Source: Loxodes magnus
Taxonomy: Eukaryota > Ciliophora > Karyorelictea > Loxodida > Loxodidae
DNA length: 64,000 bases
Assembly: GCA_946699065.1 (NCBI GenBank)
Contig: CAMPDV010000232.1
Location: 310,001-374,000, forward strand
Reading direction: 5' to 3'
Position numbers and translations under genes: made by a program. Shown here piece by piece: positions 3,120 to 64,000 of this stretch (within the stretch, counting starts at the first letter, position 1; every line of letters begins with the position of its first letter). The notes beneath the pieces were generated by a model. The model did not search any database. It was not told the origin of the DNA and saw only the letters and a list, made by a program, of their open reading frames with translations.

Positions 3120-4158
3120 ATCATTAATCATTAAAATAAATGTTCGCCTCCCGGCTAAATTGAAGTTTTAAATATATAATATCTCCGTTCCTGCATGTTT
3201 GTTCCTTGCATTGTTCTTTTTCCTTGAATTCTCTCTTTTGAATAATCTGAGTTGAGAATTTTTTTTCAGATTTTCCCATTTACCTATGAGAAGAATTCCG
3301 TCACTCGCTACTTCAGTTGCTATTAGTTATCATTTCTCCAGATATTCATTCTTATCTTTTTCTATTGGGAACATTTCTTCCATAAATGTCAAGTGCTATT
3401 GCAAATATAGCATCTTTTTCTTGCTCTCGGAAATGTCTTTTCTTGTTTCTCTATTTCCATTGGAGTTCCTTATGAAGGCTTCTACAGGTTTTCTTCTATT
3501 AATTTGAGTCTAGAATCTAATTTTACTCAGTTTTTCTCGTCTTGCTCTTGCATTACTCAAATATCATTCTCTTAACATGCTGTTTGCTCATAAACTCCGA
3601 CTTTGCTCTTTTGTCTACCGCATGGACTTCATCATCTTCATGATTTATCAAATCCTGACTTAATACAAACATCTTTCCTTCTGGGAGTTTAATTCCTCTT
3701 CGAGTTTTTTATGTTTCTAATAAGTTGATGTATCAGCTGTTTCATCTACTCAAAATCCATTTGTTCTATTTCGGTATTGTCTAAATAAAAGGTAATAAGA
3801 TCTATAATGAATTATCGTACTTTACCTCCTTCATTTATTTTTATTTTTTCGTTATTATTTTTATTGATTCAGTTGAATGATCTCTTTTTTCAGTTTTCAA
3901 TGGAGGTGTTGAGAGGTGTGCTAACTTTTCTGTTCTGAATTTTTATCTCAATTTTTACTTGTCTTTTGATGGAAGAGATCAGCTTTATTTTAATTTGTAG
4001 GAGTTAGTATTTTTATCAGTTCTTCTAATTTATTAGATAGTTCTGGTTATTTTTATTAAGAAGAGCGTTAAGTTGAAGAAGACGTGGTGAGAATATGTGC
4101 TTCTGGTTTTCTCTCCTGTTCTGAGGAGATGGTAAAAAACCCTTCTTGAAGCCAGCCA
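3120..4158 (-). mobile_element. Zinc-knuckle ORF retroposon copy in array unit 1
   Basis: Read on the minus strand, the 5' end resembles the start of the intact element at 62627-63448 (KKGF near the start, then an arginine-, proline- and serine-rich stretch). The 3' part encodes PMEIE followed by a CCHC knuckle (CYICNSTWHLWKKC, near 3367-3412) and a basic tail. TGA is used as Trp inside the knuckle spacing. The family looks like the ORF1 of a non-LTR element or a gag-like protein; no reverse transcriptase is present. This copy looks old and broken in its 5' half. Just past it lies a short GCCGGGAGGC hairpin. Confidence 0.6.
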
Positions 4159-6811: not shown

Positions 6812-7588
6812 TCACTACTAAGGCCACTAAGCTCCAGTCTACTAAGTTTGCTATGCATAGTTTGGATTTTGAACTCCAGTTTATTAGACTTATGGATTAG
6901 GTTATACTTGGTATGGTGCTTAATACTAAGTTCCCTGCTAGTAACCTTACTAGTAGCCAGTTGGCTAGCTAATAATTAAACCCTGCTAAATAAATTAGGG
7001 TTAAATTCCAGCTTATTAAACTCCTTGGTATTAGAAGTTTTATTGTTGTTGATAAGACACTTGAATCTACTAAGGAGTGTGCTATATTAGATAAGGAGTT
7101 GGTTACTCTAGCCTTATCTTTCTGCTAATAAAGCTAAATTTATATGAAAACTAGTAAAAGCGACGCCGCTAACGAAAAAACAGAAGCTATTATCACTCAG
7201 CTTCTCCTTTATCAGCCCAAGAACAATCATAGCAAGGACCGTCATTTTTACAACAATCCCAATCATCACAATTAGTATCATTAAAGCATAATTTGATGAA
7301 ACTATGACAACAATTAGAGAAAAAATGAACATATATAAAGTATAGCAGCACCAGTAAACTCTCCACACTAAAAACGACTAAGGATTAAGCTGTATATTTC
7401 TAAAATTAACGCATATTAGCATGGTTATCATGGGAAAGGCATCAATAAATGGAGCAAAAACAAAAGCAGATGTGGCAAATAGAATAAAACTTGCAGAGTC
7501 CCCATACAAGAGGAAACATTAGTAAGAAATGAATTTTATAGGACTCCTTATAGTCGCACATACAGCATTTCTTAGTTTCTGATTACAT
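6812..7588 (-). pseudogene. Four-TM, Q-rich-tail membrane protein, decayed copy (unit 1)
   Basis: Homologous along its length to the intact gene at 28764-29582. Recognisable pieces include the WR-YWCCYTLYMFIFSL membrane segment and the Gln/Pro/Tyr-rich C-terminal tail ending at TGA (here TGA TGA). Compared with the intact copy it has a 10-bp deletion in the cysteine-rich loop region (the bases CTCATCATAG are missing near 7290) and several small indels in the N-terminal third, none restoring frame. Unit 1 also lacks a six-base stretch near 7198 that units 2 and 3 keep. I infer loss of function after array duplication. Confidence 0.75.
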
Positions 7589-8017
7589 TTTTGATTATTA
7601 ATACTTGCTAAAACTTATTTCATAAAGGAAATCTAAACGATACAATAAAAGTAAATATAGGTTTTAAATGATTTTATCTATTTAAAGTGATTATTAGCTT
7701 GTGAACTCAATATCAGTTAAGTTTTAGTAAGCATTAGTAAGTGACAGTCATAGAAGGATTTAGCAATTGAAAAATAAAATTAAAGCTATAGCTTAGAAAT
7801 AAAAAACAATCTTCTAATGGTTATATGATGCTAGTGGAATAATAGATACTATTTAAATACAAATAAACTTAATAAAGATAGATAAAGAGAAGGATCAATT
7901 ATATCTTATAAAATAACTTAAGGAATAATTTTTGAGAAACCTTATCTTGATAAAATATAAGTATAATTAACTTTTGCCACTAAACTATTTTAATATCTAA
8001 CTTTAATCAAGATTTAG

Positions 8018-8170
8018 TCATAATTTACTTTTTACCTTCTCAAATGTTAATGAGCTTATTTCTTCCTTAATAGTAATATATCTATGACTTTGTTCATCAA
8101 AGTTTTCTTTTGAAGGTTTAAATTATGATTATTCTATCTCGCACTTTACACTCTTAACTTACTTAGGCAT
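8018..8170 (-). CDS. Small hypothetical ORF, 50 aa (unit 1)
   Basis: Starts MPKQVKSVKCEIEQ and ends EKVKSKL before TGA; two TAA codons are read as Gln. The composition (Lys, Glu, Ser with few of the Phe/Ile/Asn runs typical of random AT-rich translation) looks like real coding sequence. It has no membrane segment or known motif. It is identical in all three units, and the strong divergence of unit 3 starts just past its stop, suggesting this short stretch is constrained or lies at a conversion boundary. It could instead be a first exon of a longer gene. It lies about 430 nt upstream of the four-TM pseudogene on the same strand. Confidence 0.4.
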
Positions 8171-9412
8171 TTTGATTAGTAATGTTTTCCATTTTGAATA
8201 ATATTATAAAATAAATTTGGTAGAAATAAAATAGAAGAGTTAGTTGATAGCCTTTTATATGGACTTATAAAATCACACATTGATCCTTAAGATAAAAGTA
8301 GCTACTTTAAAATAGTTTCTTACTATTTAATACTTGATATTCTTTACTCTAGTATTAATATCTTTATATATTTAAATCATTTAGATTGTTAGATTAACTA
8401 GTGCTTAAAACTTAAGACATTTAACTAAATACTTGTAAACAACTGATCGGAGGGATGAGAAGTATTATATTTACTTAATTTCTACTAAATTATTAATTAA
8501 GCTACTGAAAACAAGCAAATTATCAAGCATAGATAAGAAGATAGATAGAGCTTATAAAAATGGACATAGCTTAACTACCTATTGTTCTATACTGGATCTT
8601 AAGCTTTAGAAAGAAGAAACATTATTTGCTTATATATTCAACTAAAGTTAGTAGAAACTGTCTATCTAAAGCATATCTTAGTGGATACATTTATTAGAAT
8701 ACAATTAGGGATATTTAATATTTGTATAACTTATAATGAGGTATGATTAATAGTATATATCTCTATCTAATATTTAAATGTTATGTCCTTAGTAAATATA
8801 AAGAAAGTTCAGTTTTGGTAGGATCCAATTTCTTATATATCTCAATATTATTTTATAAGAATAATTTTTTCTAGGAGAGTAGGATTACATTTAAAAGTTT
8901 CAAAAATAAGAAATGGTGTTGAAAGATTTCAGGTTATGGTTAATAGAGTATACTAAGCAGTATTAATAACTTTTTAGTTCATATATTTTAATGAAGCATA
9001 ATCATTAGATATAAAGTTTAACTCATATAATATATGAAAGATGCTAAGCTAAAGTTTGCTGTATAATTTAGTTAAAATATTAGATTATAGAAAGTTATCA
9101 AGTCTATTTTACCTTAAAAAACTCTAAGAAAAAGCATAAGTGGCTGTATAGTATCACCGATATATAAAATCGTATATAAATGACTAGTAAGAAGTGAGAG
9201 TATAAATTAGAGTTTACTTCAAACTAAAGCAAAAAGTTAGCAGCATAACTGTAAGATTAACAATAGATGTGAAATACTAATTAGCATACTGACACTTGTA
9301 ATGATTTAAATCTTATCTTAAGTAATTTTTCTATTTTCCTTCATTTTTTATATTATCTAAAGCCAATGAAGTTCTAGAGTATTAAAGAAATACTAAAGTT
9401 ATATAATAAATC
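8171..9412. other. AT-rich spacer, no gene recognised
   Basis: Upstream of the 50-aa ORF and before the tRNA-like gene. I see nothing recognisable. Equivalents are 19172-20413 and 30563-31804, which look identical at the positions I compared. Confidence 0.5.
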
Positions 9413-10478: not shown

Positions 10479-11828
<1,350 letters not shown>

Positions 11829-36703: not shown

Positions 36704-37413
36704 CTTTTTAATTATTCTATTTTTAAATTATTTGTGCATGCTTTTATTATAACTATACATATCTTATAAAAAATTTTAAATTACATAGAAAACTTTTAAT
36801 TCTAATATTATTTAATAATAAATAAGAGAAAAAAGATATTAAACTTGAAGAAAAATGAAATTTCTTCAATAAATCTGTTAAAGCATTGCCATATTTCTTA
36901 TTTCTAGATGAGTTTACCAAAAAATAAGTCTTTTTGTGATTTAACTTTAGCAACCATTTTTTGCATCTATGCTTTTTGGAGTTACAATATTTTGATATTA
37001 ACTGTAATATTTTTGCTCTTAAATTCTTGCACAACTTTAATTGATCTCTTATAAAATTTATTTTTTGCTTTACAAATCTGTTTTCTAAATTATTAATAAA
37101 CTATAATATCACCTTATCTCGTTTTATCTTATAAAAGTATTACTTTTAAGAGTTAAATTTTTATCTTCAAATAATCTAGTAACTTTCAGCTTATATCAGA
37201 TATTATGAAAACATAAGGTTACAATCTTTAAAAAATAATAGATATTTTTAATTATAAAATGAATATAAAAGAATTTTAATTTCTTGATAAGATCTTTAGA
37301 TTTAAATAAGTGTTTAGTCTTTTAAAATTTATATTAAATAAACCTTTTAATATTATTATGCTTATGAATATTTAGTACCTTAAATAAAAAATACTTTTTT
37401 GTATATAGAAAAA
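36704..37413. other. AT-rich intergenic DNA
   Basis: A minus-strand frame at 36753-37034 has 93 codons without standard stops but begins at TTG, not ATG, and is rich in Lys, Asn and Phe. I do not call it a gene. Confidence 0.4.
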
Positions 37414-38160
37414 ATGGAAAAATTCTTGTAAAAAACCTCTTTTCAAAAAGATTCATCTTACGAGCAATAAAATATATTTTAAGTACTCCAATTGCTGTAA
37501 TAAGAAAATTTCAACCTCCTAAGAACAGTTCAAGAACTAGAAAGAAAAATAGAGCACCTGATGTACAATTAATAAGAATAAATGAAAAATGAAAATAAAT
37601 AGACAGGAAATAACAAAATAGAAGAGCTAGAGAAAAAATTCTACTAATTCGCAGAACTAACTGAAAGCATATTTTTGCAAAATATACAGGGGAATGATTC
37701 TATGGATGTGGAGAAACAGCCTGCAATAAAAGATATTCCCTATAGGAAAATACTGCGATGCTGATACTGCAAGAGACCAGGACACAAAGTTAGAAACTGC
37801 TTCTAATTCCAATAAAAACAGAAAGCGGAAAATTTAAAGCAATGAAGAACCATAAGTAAACTATATTGCACTGCGAAGGAAGAATTTATAGAAGGAAGAT
37901 GTACACAGGGCATGAAATTCTAGAAGACGTGATTATAGCAGGACAAAGAAGAAATGAACAAATGCTTGGAATGAAGATTGATTGAAACAAGATTACGAAA
38001 ATAAAAAAGGGAGAACACAGCACAGATAGATATGTGCTTCAAGAAGAAGACCCAGAAGAAGACTGGAAATGGAAATTTTAGCAAAACTATTAAACTTTAA
38101 AAAGTGACGAACCTTATTGATAGGTGGGATCACTATAATTAATTATTATTATTATATTAA
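37414..38160 (+). mobile_element. ORF-bearing zinc-knuckle retroposon with terminal stem-loop and TTA tail
   Basis: One uninterrupted frame from ATG (MEKFLQKTSFQKDSSYEQ) through a coiled coil (about residues 25-90), the PMEIE-like box (SMDVEK) and a CCHC knuckle (CWYCKRPGHKVRNC, Trp as TGA), then a basic Lys/Arg tail with further TGA at Trp-like sites. The frame runs past the probable end into the tail, so the C-terminus is uncertain. The 3' end has AAAGTGACGAACC...GGTGGGATCACTATAAT, a stem-loop built like those of SINE-A and SINE-B, then a TTA run. No reverse transcriptase is present. The protein resembles a non-LTR ORF1 or a gag-like nucleic-acid-binding protein. It looks whole. Confidence 0.65.
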
Positions 38161-39149
38161 ATCAATCATTTATTAAAGGAATGATTAATTAAAATTATAA
38201 TTTAAGTGTCTAATAATTTAGAATAAAGCAAAATAGCTCATTGTTAAGGTTATTTAAGAATTTGTGTATTATTCTCTTTATCGGCTTAGTAAAAAACTTT
38301 GCTTTTTATAATGCTATATATGTTTTCTTTTTAAATTGTACGAAATATTTCCCATTTCTTATAGATATAATTCTAATAATTATTAACTTATAGTCTTTAA
38401 ATTATTTTGATTAATACAAAAGATTGAAGCTTTTCTTTTATCATTTTTTGATATAATGAAAACTATATTGATTTCATAATTATTTACACTTTTATTTGTT
38501 AATTAGCCTTATTTAATATTAGAATATAATTTTACTCTTATTTTAGATGGAAGTATAAAGATACTTTACAAGAAAGTGTAGATTTTTAAAATTTTGCATA
38601 TTCTAAATATTTAAATAGTTTACAAGCAAATTTTTTTATATGATAGATAATCAATCCTTTGTTTTCAAAAGATTCCAACTTTAATAAAATAACTTCATTC
38701 GAAATTCAAATTTTAAGATTAAATAAATAAAATCAATTTTCTAAATACACAGTAGATATATTCATGTTGCTTACAATCCGAAAGCTAATCTTTAAAGCTA
38801 TTCCTTTTAATATTACAAAATTTAAAAAATTTTGAAGAGAAAAAATACTTAATATAACAATTTTTTCTTAAAATTTATTTTTCTCTTCTAAATTAACATC
38901 TTTGCGCAAACTAAAAAATCAGAAAAATTACTCATAGTAAGCTCCTTTCAAAACACTTTTACTCATCTTTTTAAATTTTTTTTATGTTTTTCTTATTATT
39001 ATAATAAAGCAGTTTTTTTAAATTTGATTAATAAGTTTTTATTTGTACATTTTATATATTTAGGGTTAGATATATTATTTAGATTATTTTTTAATTACTT
39101 TTCTTAGATTCTTTGTAGATTTGCCTAAAATTTATTATTACAGATTCAT
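38161..39149. other. AT-rich intergenic DNA
   Basis: About 1 kb of very AT-rich sequence. No coding frame, RNA or repeat recognised. Confidence 0.5.
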
Positions 39150-41351
39150 TATACAACGTTCTTTCTATTTGATTATTTATATTTCGTAAAGAGATTTTTG
39201 AACTCTTTTTGATTAGTTATTTTTAATAATTCACAATACCTTTTATAAAAGATAGCTTTAAATACTCTTATAGAGACATTTTTTTAGTAATTTTATTTTG
39301 TCCTAAGATTGTCATTTATTTTTTATCTTCAGTTCTTAAAAACCACTTTTGAAAAAAATTAATTAATCTTTTAAAACTTTATCCATTTTAAAATATTTAT
39401 CCATCCCAATCTTCTGTATTGTAAAATTCAGAGAAAAAAATAAAGGTTAATTTTTTCACGATTTCATGCTTTAATTTATTATCTCTTTTGTTCCTTGAGA
39501 TCCTTTTCAATTAAGTAAATTCTTATAAAATTAAATATTTTATCACAAGTTTTTATCATTTACACGAAAAGAAATTTGAATGTTTAAAAATTTCCAAATT
39601 CTAGTTTTATTTCTATTTTTCTCAACAATTTTATATTTGGAATTTTTTCATTCAATTTTATTCCCTTTTAACTTTTTTATCCCCAAATAAAAATATGTTC
39701 CTTCCCGAAAATATCCTCTAGTGTAAAACACTGAGACTAAAACAAATTTTGTATTTTTTGAAATTTAACTATAAAATTGAAAAATAAATAAAAAAACTTA
39801 CTATAATAAAAAAATTTTCTAATAGGAAGCAAAACATGTTAAACATAAAAATTAGAATTTAATTGTGTACTAAACATAACATATAGCATAATTTAATAAA
39901 TAATAATAATAATAATAATATCTAAGATTACAAATAAATAGAAGCAAAATTTAATTTAAATAAATAAAAATAAAAATAAAACATCTAATAAAGATTTTTA
40001 AATAATAATCAAGATTATAAACTAACTTTGCATTTACAAATAAATTTAGCAACTTCAAAAAAAAATTCTAATTTTTGCATAACTTGAACTTTTTACAAAA
40101 CCACAATTGGATAAATTTCTAAAAAATTTTATGAAATAAAAAATCTTAAGTTTACTATATATCTTTAAATACTAAAAAATAAATTTAGCATTACCCTCTT
40201 AAATCACTTACACACTTTGACGAATTTCAATAATCTATAAATATAACTTACTATAATAACCTTAATATTAAAGAATGCAAAACTTTTAAATTCCTAAATA
40301 AAACATAACAATTTGATAAAAATTTTATAAACCAACAAATACTTAACTCACCTAGAACATTCATTTAAATGAATAACTAATAATTAATCTTTAAAATGAA
40401 AATTAAATTAAGTTCAAATTAAGTTACTCAAATTCAACTTGAAATCCTCCACTTTCGCACAGTCTTGTCAACAGACCCCGATACCAACCATTTATTATCA
40501 CCACTTAATGCTATAGAAGCTATTTCTTTTGTATGCCCTTATAAAGTCTATATGCACTCACCCTTATCAAAATTCCATATCTTGATTGTTCTATCACCAG
40601 AACCAGAAAATATAGCACTTGAATCAGCACTTAACTGAATACTTGTTACATATTTTTTGTGACCTTAAAGAGTACGAATTCACTAACCAGTTGAGAAGTC
40701 TCATATCTTAATTGATTTGTCCCACGAACCCGATATTATATACCTATTATCCCAAGACACTATTACTGATAAAACATCGCTTGAATGCCCAGAAAGAGTT
40801 CGAACAAGCTGACCAGTCTGGAAATTCCAGATCTTTATGGTTGTATCTACAGATGCTGATATAATATATTTAGAGTCAAGGGAGATTACTACTGATTCAA
40901 CTAAAGAAGTATGTCCCGTTAAAATTCTTTGGAGAGCACCATTTTGGAAATTTCAGATCTTGATCGTTGTATCACCAGATGCTGATACAATATAGTTAGA
41001 GTCTGGGGAGATTACTATCGATCTAACTGTATTAGTATGACCTGTTAAAGTTCTTAGGAGAACACCAGTCTACGAATTTCAGATCTTTATGATGTTGTCA
41101 CCAGATGCTGATACGATATATCTAGAATCAGGGGAGATTATTACCGAAGAAATTCAATCAGTATGTCCAGTCATAGCTCTTAGGAGAGTACCAGTCTGAA
41201 AATTCCAAATCTTTATCGAATATTCAGGAAATGTTGAACCTGATACAATTCAATTCAGGTCCCTTGATATGGCTACCGTTAAAACTTCAGAGATATGACC
41301 AGTAATGACTAAGTCTAAAAAATATTAAAGAAGTACCTTTACTTTTGTCAT
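39150..41351 (-). repeat. Left arm of an old inverted duplication (with WD40 gene)
   Basis: Its reverse complement aligns with 49435-52654: the WD40 coding part is strongly similar, and the 3' flanks show shared blocks (for example TAAGTATTTGTTGGTTTATAAA and CGTGTAAATGATAAAAACTTG) separated by many indels. The arms are 8 kb apart. Divergence in non-coding parts indicates an old event. The right arm is about 1 kb longer because of extra AT-rich modules near 51100-52200. Confidence 0.8.
40434..41351 (-). CDS. WD40-repeat protein, WD40 domain only (duplicate lacking the membrane anchor)
   Basis: 305 aa from ATG at 41351 (MTKVKVLLQ) to TGA. Seven WD40 repeats (TGH...IKIWN pattern) form one predicted beta-propeller, a protein-interaction platform. 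In-frame TGAs mostly fall at the Trp of IKIWN or at TDWISS; two sit where the paralogue has Leu and Cys. Compared with the paralogue at 48769-50358, the N-terminal myristoylation site, TM span and coiled coil are missing; homology stops about 15 codons before the first repeat. A one-base difference just before the propeller puts the upstream sequence in another frame, so this is either a soluble short form or a decaying 5'-truncated duplicate. Stops are TGA ATT TGA in tandem. Confidence 0.65.
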
Positions 41352-42354
41352 AGCTGATCTTATTTATAAGTTTTTTGTAACATAAATTGGGCAGAATTTC
41401 ATACTTAAAATGAAGAAGAGATATTTTCCCTAGTATGTGATTTCTTGCTCTTAGAAGTTTTCGTAAAAAAATACTTTTAGTAAATTGCTTTTCTTTTTTC
41501 TCCACTTTCCTTTTTATAACTTACTCAATAATTATTTAATTAAAATAACTTCACTTAATAATTTTCCTGATTTATCTTCAATACAATTAAACAATTAAAT
41601 TATTTATTTATTAACCATACTTATAAATATCTTATTTCTAAAAAATTGATATGAAAATACTATTTTTGTCTTAAATCAAGACAGATATAAAACTAACACT
41701 ACAGTGTACAAATTTTTACAATTTTAATTATTTTATATCTTTTTACTTTAAAAAAAAGGATAAATTATTATATTAAAAGTTTTATAACGAAGAATTTATA
41801 TCCTTATTATAATAACTTTAATATGCATTTATTAATTACAACTTTTTTGAGTTTTAAATTAAAGACTCTTAATAAGAAAACCTTATTTCTTTATAGACCC
41901 TAATAAATGATAAATAAAACAATGCAATTATTTTAAAACTACTGTTATTAATTATTGTTTTTCATTTATATTTAATCAAAAAATGATTTCTTTAAGCTTT
42001 TATTAATTAAAAAAATGAAATAAAATAAATTTCTTATTAATTAATTTGAATAGAGATAATATATTAAAAACGTAAAATTATTTAAAAAACATTAAAATTA
42101 GAATTTATAAGATAAAATCTTTTAATTATCCACTTTCTTACTACTATTTCATTAAATTTTTTTAAATAAAAATCTCCCTTAACATAATAAACTAATATCG
42201 TTTATTACTTTTAATTCTTATTCTTAGCAAAATAGATTATATAAATGTAATAAATAGAAGTAAATATTTAAAACTAACTAGAAATGTATGATCACTAATT
42301 TTAGCCTACGATTATTAAATAGTAATATTTAATTTTATTATTAATTTTTTTTTT
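41352..42354. other. AT-rich intergenic DNA between the inverted arms
   Basis: The first 150 nt upstream of the left WD40 gene contain a basic reading frame (starting VEKKEKQFTKS) joined out of frame to the WD40 part; it is not similar to the N-terminus of the paralogue. The rest is plain AT-rich DNA. Confidence 0.45.
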
Positions 42355-42863
42355 AAACCGCCATAGTTGTTCGAAGTGAACAACAAGGTCATCTTCATCA
42401 GAGGTTGGGGAAGTTAAGTACCCATAATCGACTTTATGTCTTCCTCTGATTTGGTTTGGCCTCGAGACATAAGATTCTTAGACCTTCGGCACTGACTTAT
42501 TATAATTTTTAATTCTGGAACGAAAAAGAAATAATATTGCGAGCTTCATCAGAGGTGGGGAATTTAAGTACCCATAATTGAAACATGTCGTCCTCTGCTT
42601 TGGTGAGGCAACGAGACACAATCCTGCCATGTCCTTGGACCTCCAACAAATAGAAAAGATTACGAGTATTCTAAAATTATATCAGTATTGAACATTTTTA
42701 TCAGTACTGAATAATTATACCGTATTGAACAAGGTCTACCAGTATCTGATAATTTTATCAGTAAGAAACGTTCTTATCAGTATGAAACATTTTTTTAAAG
42801 AGCTGCGCACCAATGAGAGTGCTACGCGCTCTATAATCAAATTTATTATTATTATTATTATTA
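42355..42863 (+). mobile_element. SINE-A, copy 1
   Basis: About 510 bp. Parts in order: 5' hairpin GTTGTTC/GAACAAC; two similar modules of about 95 nt (42396-42489 and 42546-42637), each with CAGAGG...CCTCTG closing a stem and GGGGAA-TTAAGTACCC inside; six 19-bp degenerate repeats with consensus TATCAGTATTGAACATTTT (42679-42794); a terminal stem-loop AAAGAGCTGCGCACC...CTACGCGCTCTATAATC; and a TTA tail. No ORF. The 3' stem-loop plus short-motif tail is typical of elements copied by non-LTR reverse transcriptases. Homologous copies at 52655-53168 (-) and 57125-57600 (+). Confidence 0.8.
42679..42794 (+). repeat. Six 19-bp degenerate tandem repeats inside SINE-A
   Basis: Units read TATCAGTATTGAACATTTT, TATCAGTACTGAATAATTA and so on, always 19 nt long. 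The copy at 57125-57600 has four units, the copy at 52655-53168 has six. Confidence 0.75.
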
Positions 42864-44699: not shown

Positions 44700-45385
44700 A
44701 GGTTGTTTTCCATTTTCTCTGAGCAGGGGAAAAAATCTGAAGAATCATTTTTAGCCACGTCTTAGCATCAATTAACCAATTCTTCTTTTGATAAAATGGA
44801 TATTCTCAGAAATTGATTCTCGAAAACTCCAAAATATGCAAAAAGAAAATAACTAGCTATCCATACAGATTAATTCACTTAAAGAATAAATTTAATGTTT
44901 GATATCTAACATAAATATGCTAAGATAAGAAATAATAACTTCAAGATCTAAATTAGCAAGCATCCTTAGTTATTAGAGTTTTATTAGAAAATTGTAAAAA
45001 CAGAAGAAAAAGCAAACTAAATCGTTGAGATTACTGAGAGTCTGTCTCTAAAAAACCTTGCTCATAATGGTCTTATGGATATAGAGCAAGTTATGCAACC
45101 AGATAAAGGAAATAGAATAAAGGAAAAATCTAAATGCTGGCTTTGTAAAATTCCTGGTCATTTTGTAAGACAATGATGGAAATTATAGGATAAACAAAAT
45201 ACAGAGAATAAGAAAATTCAAAAAGTATGGAATAAGCTAAGCAGATTGAAGTTACCCAAGAGGGTAAAATTTATAGACTTAAGAAAACAAACAAAAAAAT
45301 CAGCAAGTTTGTTGTGATGAACTTAATGAAAGATTCTATCACTTTAATTAATTATTATATAATTATTATATCTTATATTTAAAAC
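44700..45385 (+). mobile_element. Zinc-knuckle ORF retroposon, old copy
   Basis: Contains a coiled-coil-coding part (LQNMQKENNQLSIQINSL), the box LMDIEQ, and a CCHC-type knuckle region (CWLCKIPGHFVRQ). It ends in TATCACTTTAATTAATTATTAT, like the tail of the element at 37414-38160. Same family, broken, and more diverged than the copies at 37414 and 62627. Confidence 0.55.
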
Positions 45386-48768: not shown

Positions 48769-50358
48769 ATGGGGAATAGTTAATCAAATAACTAAAAAGA
48801 AGAATACGTATAATTATTTGACCAAGACAATTAAGTTCAAGGATATTAATAACTAGAATCAAGATGAAAATTTGTCAAGGTTTGTTTAGTTGTTATATTT
48901 TTCATCTTGTTGGCATAGGTCTCTTTTTAGTTTTCCATGGTTATTAAAGAAGATTGAGAAGAAATGAAGAATAATACAATCTAAAGCAAGTTACAAGTAT
49001 TAAATATGTAAGAGGATTTAAAATAGTTTTAATAGCAGATGTTGGACATATTGAAAAAATTATAATAGAGCTAGGATAATAAGTTTACGATAACGAATGA
49101 GTTTATTTTTGACTTATCTAAGTAGATGTAGAAAGAAACTAAGAGAATAGTAAGTTAAGAAAGTTAATAGATATAATTGAAGATAGAGAATAAGACAAAG
49201 CAAGCAATTTTTAGTTAGGTTAGTTAAGCAAACTAGTTAGTTAGTAAGTTAGACGGTGCATATAAGAATCTTTCGTAGCTATTAAATAAAGTTTCTTAGG
49301 AGAATAAAAAGAACTAGGAAGTGAGTGTAGATTAATAATAAGTAAAGAATTCGACTATAAATGAGTCGAGAGAGTAAGTTTTAAATAATTCTGATGTATA
49401 ACTGAACAATAATTAAAGTTTAACTAGGTTTTAACTAAGCTACGACCAAAGTAAAGGTATTTCTTTAATAGTTTTAGACTAAATCATCACTGGCCACACC
49501 TCAGCTGTTTTATCAGTAGCCATATCAAGTGACCTGAATTTAATTGTTTCTGGTTCGTACAGGTCTGAAAATTCGATAAAGATCTGGAATTTCCAAACAG
49601 GTGTTCTCCTAAGGACTTTAACTGGACATACTGATTGAATTTCTTCGGTAGTAATCTCCCCAGACTCTAGCTATATTATATCAGGTTCTTAGGATAGAAC
49701 GATCAAGATCTGAAATTCGTAGACTGGTTCTCTCCTAAGAACTTTAACAGGTCATACTAATACAGTTAGATCGGTAGTAATCTCCCCAGACTCTAACTAT
49801 ATTGTATCAGCATCTGATGACTACTCCGTAAATATCTGAAATTTCCACAATGGAACTCTCTTAAGAACATTGACTGGAAATGCTCGCTATGTTTACTCGG
49901 TAGTAATCTCCTCAGACTCTAATTATATAGTATCAGCATATGATGACAAAACTATAAAGATCTGGAATTTCCAGACTGGTCAGCTTGTTAGAACTCTTTC
50001 TGGGCATTCAGGCTATGTTTTATCGGTAATAGTGTCTTAGGATAATAGGTATATAATATCGGGTTCGTTGGACAAATCAATTAAGATATGGGAATTTTCA
50101 ACTGGTTAATGTATTCGTACACTTCAAGGGCATACAAGGGCTGTATGAAGTATTTCACTTAGTGCTGATTCAAGTATTATATTTTCTGGATCATTGGATA
50201 ATACAATCAAGATATGGGACTTTGATAAGGGTGAGTGCATATAGACTTTATAAGGGCATACAAATGAAATATACTCTATAGCATTGAGTGGTGACAATAA
50301 ATGGTTGGTATCTGGAGGATTTGACAATACTGTGAGAAAATGGAGGATTTCGAATTGA
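48769..50358 (+). CDS. Membrane-anchored coiled-coil WD40-repeat protein (intact)
   Basis: 529 aa, ATG to TGA, no intron. The N-terminus MGNSQSN fits an N-myristoylation site. A single TM span follows at about 37-58 (KVCLVVIFFILLA), then a Gln/Glu/Lys-rich probable coiled coil to about 230, then seven WD40 repeats from residue 241 to the end, enough for one propeller. It is thus a scaffold displayed on a membrane. Trp is encoded by TGA six times (residues 33, 63 and four in the repeats) and TGG six times, all at positions where WD40 repeats or neighbours use Trp. The end is TGA AGT TGA. Its truncated paralogue lies 7.4 kb away in inverted orientation. Confidence 0.88.
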
Positions 50359-52654
50359 AGTTGAGTAACTTAATTTGAACTTAATTTAATTTTCATTTTA
50401 AAGATTATTGGTAAGACAAAATTTTTTGAATGCATGTTTGATGTGAGTTAAGTATTTGTTGGTTTATAAAGTTTTTGATAAATTTATATTTTTTTAGTAA
50501 TTCAAAAATTTTATATTCTTAATTTAATATTAAGGCTATTATAGTAGGTTATATTTTTTTGCTATTGAAATTTTGTGAAAGTGTTCATGCAATTTAAGAA
50601 TGGCTATGTTTAAATATATTTTTAGTATTTAAAGATATCAAATAAAAGTAAGGTTCTTGTATTTCAAAAAAAATGTTTTTAATTTATTTGTTAGGTTTTG
50701 TAAAAAATTTAGTAAAAGTAAGGGTTTTAAACTCTGTTTAAATTTTTTTTGTGAAGATGCTAGAATTTTATTTGTACTGGCAAAGTTAGTTTATAATCTT
50801 AATTATTATTTAAAAATTTTATTAAGTGTTTCATTTTATAAAATATTTCATTTAATTTTTGTTATTTTTCAATTAAATTTTGTTTTTAATTATTTGTAAT
50901 CTTATTTTTTAATTTTAATTATTACTAATTATTATTATTTTAATTACTATTTATTATTATTTTTTATTATGATAATTTTTATAATTTATTATTGTTTATT
51001 ATTATTATTATTATTATATTTTATTTTAAACATTTTTCTTTTTTAAGTTATTATAAGCAATTTTATTATTTTAATCTGTTTTTAATGTGTTTTTTTTTAA
51101 GAAAAAAAATTTCTGTTTTGCTCAGCGTTTTGCAGTAAAAAATTTTAAGATAGTACTAATTTTTTTGATTTCGGGATAAAAAATCTCAAATAGGAATAAA
51201 TAATCCTAAAAAGAATAAAAATTTCTAAATAAATTAAAAAATTCTAAATAGGAATATAAAATTTAAAACAACTTTTAAAATAATTTTCTAAAATGGTTTC
51301 GAAAATAATTTTCAAAAATGTTTTTTAAAATAATTTTACAAAATATTTCATGAAAACTGCTTCTTAAAATAATTTTTGGAAAAAATTAAAAAAACTTTGA
51401 AAATTTTTTAGGATAAATTTTTTATAATTTCTTTTGATAAAAAATTTCAAATTTTCTTTTTCAAAACATTTTTATAAAGATTTTTTAATATAAATTTGTT
51501 TTTGCTCAGCGATTTATACTACCAAGATTTTTGGGATGAAATAAATTTTTTTTAAAATATTTAAAAAAGTGAAAAAGTATAAAACTTAAAAATAAAGAAA
51601 TTTTTGAATTTTGAGATACTAATTTAAATTTTTTAATTTAAATGTTATTAAAAGTTATTTAAATATGTTATATATTGTATTTAAGTTCAATATTAATTTT
51701 TATTTTATATTTAGCATGTTTCGTTTCCGATTAGAAAAAAAATTATCATAGTGTTTTCTTTATTTATCATTATCTATTAATTACAAAGCATAAATTTCAT
51801 GAAAATAGGAAATTTATCTTTTCTCAACGTTTTACAATAGAGGACATTTTCGGAACGTAATAAATTTTTTTGATTTAAGGATGAAAAAAGTAAAATGGAA
51901 CAAATTTTCAAGAAAAAATTCAAAATATAAAAAATTTTTGAGAAAAAATAGAAAATTAAAAATAATTGCATATTAAAAATAATAATGGAAATTTTTAAAT
52001 TAAAATGGCATTTTCTACAAATGAAAAAACTTATTTTATTTGAATAAATGAAAATTTTTTAGATTTTAAAAAATTTGAATAAGTATTTTTTTTGGCTTTT
52101 TATTTAAGAAAAAAAATTTAAAATTGTAAATTTTTTTGAAACTTTAAAAAAAATGTATTGTTTATGTTTTTGATAAAAATAAAATTTTTGATTTGAAATT
52201 AAAATTTTTAAACATTCAAATTTCTTTTCGTGTAAATGATAAAAACTTGTGATAAAATATTTAATTTTATAAGAATTTACTTAATTGAAAAGGATTTCAA
52301 GGAACAAAAGAAATAATAAATTAAAGCATGAAATCGTGAAAAAATTAACCTTTATTTTTTTCTCTGAATTTTACAATACAGAAGATTGGGATGGATAAAT
52401 ATTTTAAAATGGATAAAGTTTTAAAAGATTAATTAAATTTTTTCAAAAGTGGTTTTTAAGAACTGAAGATAAAAAATAAATGTCAATTTTAGGATGAAAC
52501 GAAATTAGTAAAAAATGTCTCTATAAGAGTATTTAAAGCTATCTTTTATAATAGGTATTGTGAATTGCTAAAAATAACTAATCAAAACGAGTTCAAAAAT
52601 CTCTTTACGAAATATAAATAATCAAATAGAAAAAACGAGAGATATTAATCTGTA
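49435..52654 (+). repeat. Right arm of the inverted duplication
   Basis: Counterpart of 39150-41351. It begins about 18 codons before the first WD40 repeat and runs through the 3' flank to the insertion site of a SINE-A copy, which interrupted it just after CTGTAATAA. A motif like GCTCAGCGTTTTACA-TA followed by a GGGAT-rich segment recurs at about 51113, 51503, 51813 and 52363, but only twice in the left arm (about 39420 and 39700), which accounts for much of the length difference. Confidence 0.75.
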
Positions 52655-53168
52655 ATAAATAAATAAACAAATAAATAAATAAATTTGATTATAGAGCGCG
52701 TAGCACTCTCATTGGTGCGCAGCTCTTTAAAAAAATGTTTCATACTGACAAGAATGTTTTTACTGATAAAATTATCAGATACTGGTAGACCTTGTTCAAT
52801 ACGGTATAATTATTCAGTACTGATAAAAATGTTCAATACTGATATAATTTTAGAATACTCGTAATCTTTTCTATTTGTTGGAGGTCCAAGGACATGACAG
52901 GATTGTGTCTCGTTGCCTCACCAAAGCAGAGGACGACATGTTTCAATTATGGGTACTTAAATTCCCCACTCTGATGAAGCTCGCAATATTATTTCTTTTT
53001 AGTTCCAGAATTAAAACTAAACGAAGCCAGTGCCGAAGGTCTAAGAATCTTATGTCTCGAGGCAAAACCAAATCAGAGGAAGACATAAAGTCGATTATGG
53101 GTACTTAACTTCCCCAATCTCTGATGAAGATGATCTTGTTGTTCACTTCGAACAACTATGGCGGTTTT
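52655..53168 (-). mobile_element. SINE-A, copy 2 (reverse orientation)
   Basis: Reverse complement of the copy at 42355-42863, highly similar over the full length including six 19-bp repeats, terminal stem-loop and a TAAA/TAAAC tail (TTTA on the element strand). It is inserted in the right arm of the inverted duplication, about 100 nt beyond the 3' end of the F-box/LRR gene frame. The similarity suggests recent spread. A plus-strand 77-codon frame at 52875-53108 is only its antisense. Confidence 0.8.
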
Positions 53169-53263
53169 AAAAAAATATATAATAAAATAAATTAGAAGTA
53201 AGAAATAAAAAAATACTAAATAAATATTAATTATAAAGACTATATCTTGCTTAATTTTCTTAA

Positions 53264-55642
53264 TCATAAATTTTTCAATAAAATAAATATACTCTAAGCA
53301 TTATAATTGCTTAAAGAAATTAAGTGTAATTAGATATATTTTGATTTAAATATTTATAAATGATAATTAATTTATAGAATGAAGTAGTTATAATTATTTA
53401 ATTTAATTTTATATTTAATTATTATATTAATTTATTTAATAATAATCTTAAGTTAATTTTCCTATTCTATCAAAATCTTCCCTAAATTCAAATCTTCACC
53501 TTTTCCATCTTAAAAAGGCTATTCTTCTATAAAATAATATTTTAAGATTTTTAGATTTTTGCCTTATTCATTAATCAAATTTCATTCGATTTAGTCGCAT
53601 CCATATAAATCTAAATTTCTTAAATTGTTTCATATTGGATAATAAAAGCCTTACTCATTTTTAAATATAAATCCTTCCTAAGTCAATAAAGCATTATAGC
53701 CTAAGTTCAAATTTTTTAATAAATGACAACTTTTTATTATTTTATGTAAATCTTAATTTCTTACTTAGCACTAAAATAATTTTAATGTATTTAGCTTTTA
53801 TATTTTCGTAATTTAATCAATCCAATTTTCATTCATAAAAGTGCATTAATTCAAATTAAGATTATTAAGGATATAGCAGTATTTACTTATCTTTTCCAAA
53901 GTTTCACTTGATATGTTTCTTATTTATATTAGTTCTATTAATTTTAGTTTGTTACAACTTTAAAAAATGAAGTTTAAAGTTTCATCAGTCACTTGAATCA
54001 AATTCTTTAATTATAGTTCCTAGATATTTTAATTGTATTAAGCAATTAATCTAATAGTTTAATCTTATAGTTATTTTAAATTTAATAGTTTTATAATTCT
54101 TAAATTAGGGCTATTTTTTAAAACTAGACCAATCGTTTCATCTTATATATAACTAAGACCTTCTAATGCTAGCAATTATAAGGATGCTAGTTATTATAAA
54201 TGCTATAGACTGTTAATTTGTATCTAGTTTTATTTATTTTGTTATTAAACCGTTTCATGTTAGTCAGATTATAAGTATAATTCTTTTAAATTTGGAGTAA
54301 TCTATAGTAAATATATCAGAGATTTGCTATTAAAAGTCAAGCACTTACTTATCTAAATTCTGTAAAGTTTCTTTAAATTTATATTATATTAATTATAGTT
54401 AAAAACCTCCTCCTCATTTTAAATTACTATTTACGTATTTTAACTTGCTTTAAAGAGATTATCTAATTAACTTCATTTTAACTTTTTTAGATTTGGAGCG
54501 TTTTAGAGTAATGAAAACAGTATTTAACTTTAAAATGGCGTATAGTTAACTATTTAAATATATTCAAGATAATTTCAGTTATTAGAAAAGAAATCAATCA
54601 ATGCTTCGATATTTTAATAATCTATCATAATCTTTAGCTTCTATAAGTTCAAATTCATTACTAATTTTAAAGTTTCTTTCTGTAATTATCGTACTAAAGA
54701 AAATTCAAGACTGCTTAATTTTGGACATAAGTGTATAAAATCTAACGTATTATTGTTTATTAATATTTCTTAAGCAAAGTTACCTTTTATCATTAAAAAG
54801 CTTTTAATATAATCATTGTTTATTTGAGTACTTTGTATTTTTATTACTTTTAAGTTTAAGTTTTTACAGTAAGATATTAAAAACTAACCTGTTATATTTT
54901 ATACCCAATCAAGAGAAATAAATTCTAAATTAGGTAAATTTTGTATAAATTCTAGCTCATTATCTGTTATATCTATATTATCTATATCTAAATGCTTTAA
55001 GTTTAAACAGCTTGCCAGATTAAGAATTCCATTTATATTATTAAAAGATGAAAAAATGGAGTTTTGTATTTTAATTTCTTATACCCTGAGATATTTACCA
55101 TTTTTAATACTTTTCTATCTGAAACTTATACACCTATTAAACTCTTATATTACCCAATTTCAGACTATCTATGATAAATCAAATAAATCAAAATGGATTT
55201 GCTTGATATCTTAATACGCTATTTATTTTAATGATCAATACATACTACTTCTAATTTATTCTTTACTGCCCTAAATTTTATTCAACTGTAGCAATTAAAT
55301 TTTAAAGGTGAACTTATAGAAAAACTTACTAACTTATTAGAAAATTGCTATTTCTTTATTGTCAAAGTATTAAAATACTTAGTCAAGGATGTTCTTATTT
55401 TTTCAAAAACTATCCCTTGTATTCTACTTTTATATTTTATGCTATTAGCTTGCTTTGACTTCTATCTTTTACTAGTCAAAAGCTTTAACTAAAACTTATA
55501 AGTCTTTTATATCAGGAGACTCTTATTTTAATTGCTGCTATTGCTAGCAAATCTAAACATTTTAAAGTAGATTCATTTCCTATTATTATATATTTAAGCC
55601 TTCCTAGCAGCTAGTATTTTACTATTCTTAATTTTGATTCAT
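53264..55642 (-). CDS. F-box / leucine-rich-repeat protein
   Basis: Up to 792 aa in one frame from ATG at 55642 (MNQNQEQQNTSCQEG). A Gln-rich N-terminal tail is followed by an F-box-like motif (ILDQVFQYFDNKEIAIF, about 85-101, through VSKFFYKF), then more than a dozen leucine-rich repeats of the F-box/RNI type from about residue 205, e.g. LNLKHLDIDNIDITD, NLKELYL, LKNLNLGYN and LRNLDLYGCDQIEW. Such proteins present substrates to SCF ubiquitin ligases; that role is inferred. Seven internal TGAs fall at Trp-compatible places. The true C-terminus is uncertain: repeats end about 85 codons before the next TGA at 53264, and that last part looks like UTR. A SINE-A lies just downstream. Confidence 0.78.
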
Positions 55643-57124
55643 CTAGGTTAAGTTCTAAGTATTGCAATTTTAAGAATAAATAATTTTGTTAGGTTACATT
55701 AATAAGATAAGTTAGGATTGAACCAGATAATAAATAAATTATGAAAGAAATAAAATATTTAATTATTAATTATAATTTATAATATATAGCATAGTCTTAT
55801 TTAATTATCATTCAACCATATATCATCTCTATACTTTTCCTTTTATTGTTTTCAGTTAGTAAAAAGAGATATTATTTAGTAAATTTAAAAAGCAGTGAAA
55901 AAGTAAATTATTAAGTATTTTTAATATTTAGATTATAAAGTATTGATTAAGATTATAAAGTACTTTAAAGATAATTTGAAGCATTTTTAAATTAAATAAA
56001 TAGAAATTAAATTATAAATACCTTTTAAATAGTAATGCACATAATTGAATTATCTATTCAAATTAAATTATCTAGCTCTTATTTTATTTATTTCTTTTAT
56101 ATTATTATTTTACTTTAAATTTGCTATTACCCAAAATATCCAAAGTTTAAAACTTTAAATATAGCTATTTTTTATATAAATTATTAAAAGCAGTATTTAT
56201 TTAAGTGCATGGAGGAAAATTTTAATTTAATTCAATCTAAAATTTTGAAAAATAATTTTAATATTAATAAATCAAAAAATTTAAATTATACATTGCTTTT
56301 TATCTTTTTTAAATTTTGAAATATTTCTTAAATTAAATCTGTTTTAATATTTAAATTAGTACTTTAATCTTAAATTTCTAAAATGTTTCAAAATTTTCCT
56401 TAATAGAATTATTTTATTTAATAATTGTAATTGCTTATATTTCTAGATAATTTATAAGTTCAAGATAAAAATGGTTATTTATTTTGTGGTAATCGATTTT
56501 TAAATTTATATATAAGATTTTCCTGTAATAACTAATTTTTGAAAAATGTAAAAAGAACTACCAATAAAATTTTTTTCATATAAATTAATATAAAATTTTT
56601 ATCTTTTTTAATGAAATAAAATATCAAATATTTAAATTTTGGATATCCTCAAATTTAACTTTTTATTAGCTTATTTAATTTATTCTTGAATTACTACTTT
56701 CAAATTTGCTTATTGATATTGATATAAATAATACTTGGCTAATTAATTTTTTTTATTGAATAATATAAATTAATTTGTACTGTTTTCTTATTTTTATCCA
56801 TATAGTTAAAAAAAATTACAGTTCAATAATTTTCCTTCAATTACGTTTCCCTTTTATCTTCTTTATTTATTTTTTTCGTAACTTTCATTTTGAGAAATAA
56901 ATTTTCCATTTATATGTTATTTTTTCCTTATATTGAATTTTTCTTCAAAGAGCATTTGAAAAGAAATTTTTATTCTTAAGGTAATTTTATTAAAAATTTG
57001 AATTTTAAATTAGCTATTTCAGGTTATAAGTTAATTATTTGAGTAAATCAAATCTCCTCGAAACTTAAAATATTTTAAACAAAATTTGTAGAATTTTATG
57101 TTATTAAAAAATTATAATTTTTTT
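55643..57124. other. AT-rich upstream region of the F-box/LRR gene
   Basis: About 85% AT by eye. A 36-codon ATG-TGA frame at 56209-56319 (MEENFNLIQSKIL) is too short and AT-biased to call. Probably promoter and intergenic DNA. Confidence 0.45.
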
Positions 57125-57600
57125 AAAACCGTCATAGTTGTTCGAAGGTGAACAACAAGGTCATCTTCGTCAGAGGTTGGGGAAGTTAAGTACCCATAAT
57201 CGACTTTATGTCTTCCTCTGTTTTGGTTTGGCCTCGAGACATAAGATTCTTAGACCTTCGGCACTGACTTATTATAATTTTTAATTCTGGAACGAAAAAG
57301 AAATAATATTGCGAGCTTCATCAGAGGTGGGGAATTTAAATACCCATAATTGACACATGTCATCATCTACTTTGGTGATGCAATGAGACACAATCCTGCC
57401 ATGTCCTTGGACCTCCAGCAAGTATTAAAGATTACGAGTATTCTAAAATTATATCAGTATTGAACATTTTTATCAGTATCTGATAATTTTATCAGTAAGA
57501 AACATTCTTGTTAGTATGAAACATTTTTTTTTAAAGAGCTGCGCACCGATGAGAGTGCTACGCGCTCTATAATCAAATTTATTTATTTATTTATTATTTA
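57125..57600 (+). mobile_element. SINE-A, copy 3
   Basis: Same organisation as 42355-42863: 5' hairpin, two related structured modules, 19-bp repeats, terminal stem-loop (AAAGAGCTGCGCACCGATGAG...), then a TTTA tail. It has four 19-bp repeats where the others have six, and scattered substitutions in the second module, so it is somewhat older. As in the other copies, it begins after a T run with TTTAAAACCG. Confidence 0.8.
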
Positions 57601-58289
57601 AATACTTCAAAATAATTATTTTTCGAGAAGGCAAATTTATGAATATTTAATAATTATATCTTTATTTCAGATCATTCTTTAATTTTTAAGTATAATTCCT
57701 TTATTTAAAATCAAGTCTAGTTCTCATAATTTGTTTAGTTTCTTGCAGATATGAGCGAATAGAAAATTTGTGATATTATTGTTTAAATTTTCCAAATTAA
57801 AATATTTTTTTGCTAATATTGTATAATTTCCATTTTTTTGTTTAATTTCTCCATAAATGGAATCATATATTTATTTTTTTAGTACATTACTATAAGTTTA
57901 ACATAAATAGGTTTTTTATATTCAATTACAGTTTGCTCAATTTTTTTATTATATAGCATTTTTCTAATTTTTAAAAGTTTGATAATAAGATCCTTCATAT
58001 TTATAAATTATCAAGATTAAATACTTACAATTATAATAAATTATAAGAGTTTCAATATTTAGAAATATTGTGTCATAATTAGATAATTTTTATAGAAATA
58101 ATCAAGTAATTATGCTAAAAATAAAAGCTTACACTCATCAATTGCTTAATCTCAGTCATCTTACTTTAAATTCCAAACAAATATTCTCATTGAGTTCTTT
58201 TTCGTCTAAGGAATTTATTTAATATTTTAATTAAAAAAATGAAATGTATAAATTTAAGTTCATTATAAGGTATTTCAACTTCTTACGGA
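57601..58289. other. AT-rich intergenic DNA
   Basis: No gene recognised. A short minus frame around 58150-58220 (NSLDEKELNENI) is protein-like but too short to support. Confidence 0.4.
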
Positions 58290-59195
58290 AGGAAGTACTT
58301 CATGCTCCCTGTTGTTAGATAAGAATAATTGGGATCTCCAATTTTAGCGAGATTTAGAACTAAGATTTTTCCAGCTTTTCCTCTTATTTCCTCACTTCTT
58401 CTATCCTCTCCTCTCCTTTTCTTATCTCTTATATAAATTTATTCACTCAGTCTTCAATATATTCGGTTTAATCTTGCTTCTTCTTGACAATTTCTTCAAT
58501 TTTCTTTTATCCAATAGTTCAGTTTATTCTGCTAAAATTTCTAACATTTCAAATATAAAAGAACTCCATAACAGAAGTATTTTTTTTCTAATCTTTAGTT
58601 TCCTCTATTTTTTAAGGCATTCTGATATATTCTTCTTCAATTGTCATTGGGTCACTTTTTTTGTCCTTTTATCTCCATTTGAAATTGTAATTTATCCAAG
58701 CTTTCTTCTTTTTTTTAGTTCTATTTCCAATTTCTTTTGCTTCTGTTTCTGATTTTAAGATTGGTTGCATTGATCTTATGAAATGCTTCAGAAAGTGATA
58801 AATCTTTTTCCTATGACATGAGTATTTAATCAAGCTTTTCTTGTTTGCATAAAATCCCTTCTAATTTTTTTGTATTTTTTTAGCCTTTTCACCTCTTTCT
58901 GGAGTTTTAACATCACTTTAACTAATTGTTCATAGCTAATCATTTTTTCAGTGGCGAATTTGCGACTTCTAGGGGCATTATATTCTTAACCTATTTCATA
59001 GGTTTTTCTCTGATAGTTGAGTCTCGAAATGGTGAAGGGCTTTCTGTTATCTTTTTTCTAGTTCATTGGAAGTTAGTGCTAAGTTTATTAAAAAGATTAT
59101 TTTTTTTAAAGACGACATGGATATAAGAATTGGCGCTCCTCTCTTACTCTTAGGAGGCGGTATTGAAGTTCTTTCTAAAACCATCCAATGATTTT
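58290..59195 (-). mobile_element. Zinc-knuckle ORF retroposon family, old copy
   Basis: On the minus strand the 5' end aligns with the start of the element at 62627-63448 (shared ACTTC/ATACC-CCTCC pattern), followed by the EQL-KV coiled-coil start and a PMTIEEE-like box. The knuckle is no longer clear. It is heavily worn and broken. Plus-strand frames here are antisense shadows. Confidence 0.5.
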
Positions 59196-62390: not shown

Positions 62391-62626
62391 AAGGTAATTA
62401 ATTTCTAAACTTAAAGGCTAAACTTCTTTAAATTGAAAAAATTATTTTCTCATTGAGTTGAATATAACATCATAAGATGTTATATATATTAATATCTTCA
62501 CTCTTTTAAACTCTTTTGAATTGGATATCATTAGATATAAAAGAAACACTTAACTGAAATATTTAAATTAAATTCAATTTAAATGTTCTGCAGTAGCTTC
62601 AAGCCGCCGCATAAAATAAAAGTTTT

Positions 62627-63448
62627 TCAATCTTGGTGGTTTTTCTTCTTGATTCTCTCTTGTCCCAATTCTCATCTTCTCTATTCTTGAAGTTCCTGAT
62701 TGTTTTTATTTTTTCTTGTATATCTGTCCGTCTTTATTGCAATACAGTTTCTTCCTTTCCTTTTCTTCTTTAATTCAGTATCTTTCTTGAATTTCTAGAA
62801 TTTCTTACATCTTCTGTACAGATGATTCTGGCTTTTACAAAAGTAACATTTCTTCTTTATCTTTCTAGCCGGCTCCATCTTGATTACCTGCTCTTCTTCT
62901 ATTTCCATTTTGTCGATCTTAGGAATTTCTTGTCTCTAACTTAATATTATTTCCTTATTCTAATCTTGTATCGTTTTTATTGAGGCGTTCATCTGTTTCA
63001 ACTCTTCCTACTGATACTTCCAGAGAGTGTCAAGCTCCCTTTCCCAATTTGCCATTCGAAGCTCTCTTGAGTCCTGTTGCTCAATTAAATCCATTAGCTT
63101 CGTATTTTCCTTCTTGAGCTTATTAACCTCTTCCTATAGGTTTATGACTACCTTAATTAATTGTTCTATGCTCAACTACCCGGATGGATAGCCTTCCGAC
63201 ACCTCCTAATGTAGAGCCGACTTAGGCTGCTTCCTTGGCTTTTCCTGCGTTGACGGAGTGAGTTCATGGCTTGTCCTAGCAATTGGATATTCTTCCCTGG
63301 GTAAGGAAGATTAATATTACTTCACCGGAGTTTAGTCTTATTAAGAAGAAGATTAGGGTTAAGTGTAAGACGACTGATTAAGAGTGGCTTCTGGTTTCCT
63401 CTCCTATTTCTTGGAGGTGGTATAGAAACCTTTCTTTAAGCCTTCCAT
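62627..63448 (-). CDS. Zinc-knuckle, coiled-coil protein of an ORF-only retroposon (intact)
   Basis: 273 aa if it ends at TGA 62627; 258 aa if the TGA at 62672 is the stop. Order: basic N-terminus MEGLKKGFYTTSKKQERK, a Pro/Ser/Gln-rich linker, a coiled coil (about 92-175, with LQEEVNKLKKENTKLMDLI), the box KMEIEEE, a CCHC zinc knuckle (Cys201, Cys204, His209, Cys214; CYFCKSQNHLYRRC) and a Lys/Arg-rich tail. It probably binds RNA or single-stranded DNA and self-associates, like ORF1 of non-LTR elements or Gag-like proteins. No polymerase, protease or integrase is nearby. Composition is much less AT-biased than the flanks, suggesting a young copy. Related copies: 3120, 14117, 25121, 37414, 44700, 45940 and 58290. 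Confidence 0.72.
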
Positions 63449-64000
63449 TTTATTTTTAACTGAAATATTTAAAGTTAATTATATTGTAACATATTAAGAA
63501 AATATAATTAGCTTAATTTTATGTTAATTTCAAAAAAAATAATGGATGAAGTATAGAATTAACTAGTTCTAAATAGTGACTCTTCTTTAATTAATTAAAA
63601 AGAAACTGCAAATTCAAAGGTAAGCAAGGTAGGTGCATAAAAACCTCCAAATAAGAGATTTGGAGTCTCTAGAACTTATAGAAGTAAACTTAATAATTAA
63701 TTCGTTAAGAAAATTATTAAAAAACAAAGTTAAAAACCAGAAAACAAATTCCTATGTGTTCCATTAAAATTACTTCGAAATTCTCTTCAATGGGGACATT
63801 AATTGTAGAGTTTGCTGAAAGAAAAACCAATATATAGGAAAAAAATTAGTATTACCGCCTAAAATAGTACCGCCAAAGATACTTATGAGTATCCTAAAGA
63901 CATTTTTTTTAAATAAGATATTATCTAAGATAGTGAGAATATAAAAGATATGCACTCAAATCTGAACTAAAATAAAAATATCTTTATACGATAATCAAAA
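63449..64000. other. AT-rich intergenic DNA at window end
   Basis: A minus frame at 63770-63955 encodes a hydrophobic 61-aa sequence (MHIFYILTILDNILF) that could continue when TAA is Gln. There is no motif, so it is not called. Confidence 0.4.

Follow-up and report, generated by a model that had tools for sequence, protein, structure and literature searches.

TGA as a probable tryptophan and stop codon in a repeat-rich stretch of DNA that fits the karyorelict nuclear code

How can one codon, TGA, stand in frame inside genes and also at the points where genes should end? This question is raised by a window of 64 kb (the whole stretch of DNA that was analysed; GC content 25.7%), for which a sequence-only reading had proposed that TGA is read as tryptophan as well as stop and that TAA and TAG are read as glutamine. 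In all likelihood, this is nuclear DNA, probably of a karyorelict or related ciliate, in which TAA and TAG would encode Gln and TGA would encode Trp inside a gene and stop at its 3' end, because TGA is found at invariant Trp positions of WD repeats, in genes that are under selection beyond their TGAs, and also where a WD40 gene and EF1A should end. The proposal is thereby supported on narrower evidence than claimed. As the best reading, it draws on a pair of WD40 genes and on EF1A, and its Trp part would depend on a single gene family, the two WD40 genes being paralogues.

Positions 1-35040 of the window consist of an 11-kb unit repeated head to tail (three full copies plus a further, incomplete one of about 1.65 kb), and EF1A spans the ends of these units. 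Between units 1 and 2 there are 7 substitutions; between units 1 and 3 there are 135, almost all of which lie at unit positions 3000-8500, with the EF1A part unchanged. The right part of the window contains two inverted WD40 paralogues, an F-box/LRR-like frame, and dispersed repeats. One dispersed repeat of about 500 bp is present at 42344-42847, 52636-53178, and 57148-57625, in pieces that are 85-99% alike; it is composed of two similar half-units containing CTGATGAAG, and its comparison with Rfam returned two sub-threshold matches and none better. In the 64-kb window, no tRNA genes were found and no Rfam family, rRNA included, reached the gathering threshold. None of ten long TGA-free ORFs had a match above the Pfam cutoff.

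The EF1A gene (10479..11828, forward strand; additional copies have their ends at 828, 22829, and 34220) has six TAA and four TAG codons in frame, four TGG, and no TGA before the TGA at 11826-11828. The earlier observation that EF1A ends at TGA and has only TGG for Trp was thus correct. When scored against the best 120 of 7999 homologues, Gln is the commonest residue at five of the ten TAA/TAG columns (119/120, 119/120, 68/120, 120/120, and 111/118), with codons 108, 132, and 239 facing Gln in 119-120 of these 120 homologues. At the remaining five columns, the commonest residues are Ala, Lys, Glu, Ser, and Glu. Assignment of TAG to Gln relies mainly on codon 132, the only one of the four TAG codons in a near-invariant Gln column. 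Overall, decoding of TAA and TAG as Gln appears well supported by these columns. Decoding as Glu, as in Blastocrithidia with its code table number 31, is not supported in this way, several TAA and TAG codons lying on invariant Gln columns of EF1A. A search of viral contigs with EF1A returned two EF1A fragments; the IMG/VR contig region L001:2-562 (contig of 2139 bp) carries an EF1A fragment with an in-frame TAG, possibly a ciliate sequence among viral ones. The names shown for the best 120 of 7999 EF1A hits include none of a ciliate, solved structures did not help to place the lineage, and an exact EF1A pattern had no match in a collection of genome contigs from which the genome of the window itself may be missing.

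WD40 gene A (48769..50358, forward strand) has a probable ATG start, seven WD repeats, a possible membrane segment recognized by eye, and a terminal TGA at 50356-50358. Read from 48769, its frame contains six internal TGAs, at codons 33, 63, 290, 315, 357, and 460, alongside six TGG in 528 codons, exactly as first counted. Paralogue B (40434..41351, reverse strand) has six internal TGAs, at codons 34, 66, 91, 133, 217, and 224, a terminal TGA at codon 306, and seven TGG. A second TGA follows two codons past the terminal TGA in both genes (50362-50364 in A). The statement that no frame disruption accompanies the TGAs is valid for A and for the coding block shared by both genes; B is offset by 1 nt relative to A, 33 nt into the homology and at the 5' edge of B. 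It may start at its own ATG or be 5'-truncated, or the offset may be a sequencing error.

Both proteins were aligned to the best 120 of 6517 homologues after all TGA, TGG, TAA, and TAG codons had been replaced by X. Seven Trp columns per gene are conserved, and these 14 columns are occupied by nine TGG and five TGA codons and by nothing else. Trp is found at the five TGA columns in 116/120, 113/120, 115/119, 114/120, and 113/120 of these homologues. Alignment with homologues, which the sequence-only reading had suggested as a check, bears out the Trp assignment for the WD40 pair (five TGAs in columns with Trp in 113-116 of 119-120 homologues) and gives columns without Trp for the F-box/LRR-like frame described below. 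The claim that all six TGAs of A fall where Trp is expected, four of them at conserved sites, was overstated. Only two of the six, codons 315 and 357 (116/120 and 113/120 Trp), are located in conserved Trp columns. Codon 290 belongs to a variable column with Trp as joint commonest residue (14/120), codon 460 to a column led by Asn (28/120; Trp 9), and codons 33 and 63 precede the domain, with a coverage of at most 20 homologues. Paralogue B was said to show the same pattern, which is true of three of its six internal TGAs (codons 91, 133, and 217) and does not extend to the other three, whose columns show Ser and Trp (16/16 of 119), Thr (38/108, Trp 6), and Glu and Leu (36/32 of 120), with Trp outside the six commonest residues in the last case.

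Altogether, five of ten TGAs aligned to homologues fall outside the conserved Trp columns (two in A, three in B), which speaks against the Trp reading. Variable columns also hold four TGG codons (512 in A; 200, 210, and 288 in B), so TGA and TGG behave alike in this respect. A direct comparison of both genes within the aligned domain identified three positions with TGA in both and one at which the TGA of B is matched by TGG in A; at the remaining three, two TGAs of B correspond to TTA and TGT in A, and codon 460 of A corresponds to ACA in B. With A and B treated as independent, at least five of ten TGAs would fall into these 14 of 578 codons by chance with a probability of 9e-7. Because three of the TGAs are shared, each shared position was also counted once, which gives three of seven TGA positions in seven of 290 columns and a chance of 3e-4.

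These columns bear directly on two other explanations. Translation of TGA as a different residue, Cys as in Euplotes or another, would agree with the one TGA of B that faces TGT (Cys) in A, but it is contradicted by the five conserved columns, in each of which at most one homologue has Cys, and can be given hardly any credence. Alternatively, TGA could be a stop codon that these genes overcome through programmed readthrough, RNA editing, or selenocysteine insertion. Such a mechanism would leave all other proteins unaffected, which agrees with an EF1A gene without TGA; it is nevertheless very unlikely given six internal TGAs per gene, five of the 12 being located at invariant Trp columns. Selenocysteine would be expected at Cys rather than Trp columns, and six readthrough events per protein would presumably leave little full-length product.

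Taken alone, the column test is compatible with pseudogene decay by TGG-to-TGA transitions, and selection past the TGAs was therefore analysed. The corresponding explanation assumes a ciliate with code 6, in which TAA and TAG encode Gln and TGA is the only stop, and regards the WD40 pair and the F-box/LRR-like frame as decaying pseudogenes. It is in accordance with the lack of internal TGA in EF1A, with the 1-nt offset of B, with the repeat-rich window and its zinc-knuckle copies with broken frames (see below), and with TGA counts in A, B, and the F-box/LRR-like frame that are near the expectation from base composition. However, A and B differ by 150 substitutions and no indels over 882 coding nt, whereas six gap events are found in the 332 nt from the terminal TGA on (p 4e-4). 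The differences are distributed as 41/34/75 over the three codon positions (882 nt, p 7e-5), and this bias persists past the first TGA common to A and B (31/27/57; 714 nt, p 0.001). In this part, dN/dS is 0.40 (238 codons; bootstrap range 0.27-0.59, with none of 2000 replicates reaching 1). Codon-position bias and dN/dS past the first shared TGA thus argue against pseudogenes of an organism that uses TGA as stop. The same is true of the 14 conserved Trp codons, all of which are TGG or TGA, and of a terminal TGA at the end point of half of the WD40 homologues, so that decay under code 6 is an improbable explanation. Starting at the terminal TGA, a stretch of 54 nt (50356-50409 in A) differs at only two sites between A and B, compared to 17% in the coding part, and local gene conversion is a possible cause of this near-identity.

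Two further sets of frames had been put forward in favor of Trp. The F-box/LRR-like frame (53400..55798, reverse strand) does contain the seven TGAs counted earlier, at codons 132, 188, 213, 408, 442, 723, and 739 of the stretch, together with three TGG (733 codons counted). Their description as Trp-compatible places was not borne out. Two homologues were found at E <= 0.001, and the TGA columns covered by them, 442, 723, and 739, show Leu, Cys or a gap, and Asp or Ala, respectively, and never Trp. The frame has an LRR match above the Pfam cutoff (E 1.5e-7) and an F-box match below it (E 0.025), separated by four TGAs, with no TGA inside either match. Two Pfam matches in one frame across four TGAs weakly suggest that TGA is a sense codon. 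As evidence for Trp in particular, the frame was set aside as neutral, because its Pfam matches are TGA-free and its covered TGA columns are without Trp.

The zinc-knuckle ORFs, which were said to show the same pattern as the WD40 genes, were rejected as evidence, as they represent a dispersed repeat family with at least two frame-disrupted copies. The ORF at 62420..63451 (reverse strand) has no TGA before its zinc knuckle and several further on. Used as a query at E < 0.001, this ORF at 62.4-63.5 kb matched regions at 58.2-59.2 kb, 3.1-4.2 kb (with tandem copies), 37.4-38.2 kb, and 44.7-45.2 kb, and more weakly at 38.6-39.2 kb; composition correction was off in this search, and low complexity may inflate the matches. 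The family copies are located at 58251-59188 and 3116-4151 on the reverse strand and at 37399-38199 and 44739-45224 on the forward strand, and a CCHC motif is also found at 46319 on the forward strand. In the copies at 58.2-59.2 and 3.1-4.2 kb, two frames match over overlapping stretches, which indicates that they are broken, and TGAs stand at many non-Trp positions. The ORFs of the family are rich in Gln and Lys, a CCHC zinc knuckle is present in several of them, and by eye they look like a retroelement gag. No reverse transcriptase was detected among the window ORFs compared with Pfam, and the zinc-knuckle query had no match among viral contigs.

A coding scan with TGA and TGG scored as neutral, for which EF1A, the WD40 pair, and the F-box/LRR-like frame served as the training set, recovered EF1A and both WD40 genes as well as the ORF at 62.6-63.4 kb and a weaker stretch at 58279-58764. 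Further matches on the opposite strand or in other frames overlapped the recovered stretches. The scan missed the F-box/LRR-like frame despite its presence in the training set, which counts against leaning on this method.

The role of TGA as stop was deduced from the positions at which genes end. The terminal TGA of EF1A lies at most three residues from the end of the homologue in 87 of the best 120 of 7999 homologues. At codon 528 of WD40 gene A, -2 to 11 residues are left in 60 of the best 120 of 6517 homologues, with the alignment nearest to the end of each homologue being taken, which is a lenient choice. The other 60 homologues run at least 24 residues past the end of A, which makes the WD40 end less secure than that of EF1A. 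Three gene ends were examined (EF1A, WD40 A, and WD40 B); all are TGA, none is TAA or TAG, and only two are independent, as A and B are paralogues. The last internal TGA precedes the stop by 70 codons in A (460 to 530) and by 82 codons in B (224 to 306), distances that come from two paralogues only. In the 100 nt that follow each gene, GC content is 20% for EF1A and 22% for WD40 A, compared to 40 and 32% in the genes themselves.

The preferred reading (Gln for TAA and TAG, Trp for internal TGA, and termination at the TGA of gene ends) corresponds to a pattern that had been attributed to code 27 or code 28. This attribution was appropriate, and the pattern fits NCBI code 27 of karyorelicts, which has already been published. 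Seah et al. 2022 is reportedly a paper on this code across karyorelicts. In code 27, sense TGA is depleted over the last 20 or so codons before the stop. Code 27 has been described as the karyorelict nuclear code of Parduczia and Loxodes (PMC4967479) and of Loxodes magnus (PMC11441545). Common features are TAA and TAG as Gln, TGA as Trp inside and as stop at the end of genes, a coding GC content above that of the 3' flank, a repeat-rich genome, and a last internal TGA at least 70 codons before the stop (A and B). Differences are that no introns are apparent in the frames read here and that TGA makes up 12 of the 25 Trp codons of the WD40 pair, a share biased by the fact that the WD40 and F-box/LRR-like genes were noticed for their TGAs, compared to a UGA usage of 0.120% in Parduczia (PMC4967479).

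In code 28 of Condylostoma magnum, all three stop codons are also sense codons and TGA encodes Trp, but genes also end at TAA or TAG (PMC4967479), whereas TGA is found at all three gene ends examined here. Code 27 is favored over code 28 on this sole ground, two of the three ends belonging to paralogues. In Amoebophrya sp. ex Karlodinium veneficum, UAA and UAG were likewise assigned to Gln and UGA to Trp by the authors; in contrast to the present DNA, where the genes examined end at TGA, the termination codon is not settled there (PMC12005148), and AT content is 65.2% (the table column taken as this strain) versus 74% here. The nonstop nuclear code of Blastocrithidia shares TGA as Trp and differs (PMC12153298) by UAR as Glu and UAA as stop, in contrast to the Gln columns and TGA ends of this window.

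The ratio of TGA to TGG follows that of TAA to TAG in A (6:6 and 24:18), in B (6:7 with the terminal TGA left out, and 3:3), and in the F-box/LRR-like frame (7:3 and 59:21). EF1A breaks this agreement with 0:4 and 6:4. A tentative and rather doubtful extension of the preferred reading is that UGA may be a nearly free synonym of UGG in ordinary genes and be excluded from highly expressed genes such as EF1A, which would amount to much heavier sense use than in Condylostoma or Parduczia, for which PMC4967479 gives a UGA usage of 0.042% (C. magnum) and the value above. Regarding the mechanism, in the published model (PMC4967479, PMC11441545) Trp is the default meaning of UGA, and translation ends at UGA only near the poly(A) tail. 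Reassignment of UGA to Trp by a tRNA-Trp(CCA) would involve an anticodon stem shortened to 4 bp together with eRF1 changes, and the window contains no tRNA gene. By analogy, UGA would be decoded as Trp by default in these genes and would act as terminator only close to the poly(A) tail. The distances of 70 and 82 codons between the last internal TGA and the stop agree with this model, as does the low GC content of the 3' flanks.

Ambiguous codes of this kind, in which a codon has both a stop and a sense meaning, bear on how the ribosome tells codon meanings apart. The principle is published, and what would be new here is only the high share of TGA in these genes and possibly another lineage. 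Annotation with the standard or the Tetrahymena code would cut such genes at their first TGA.
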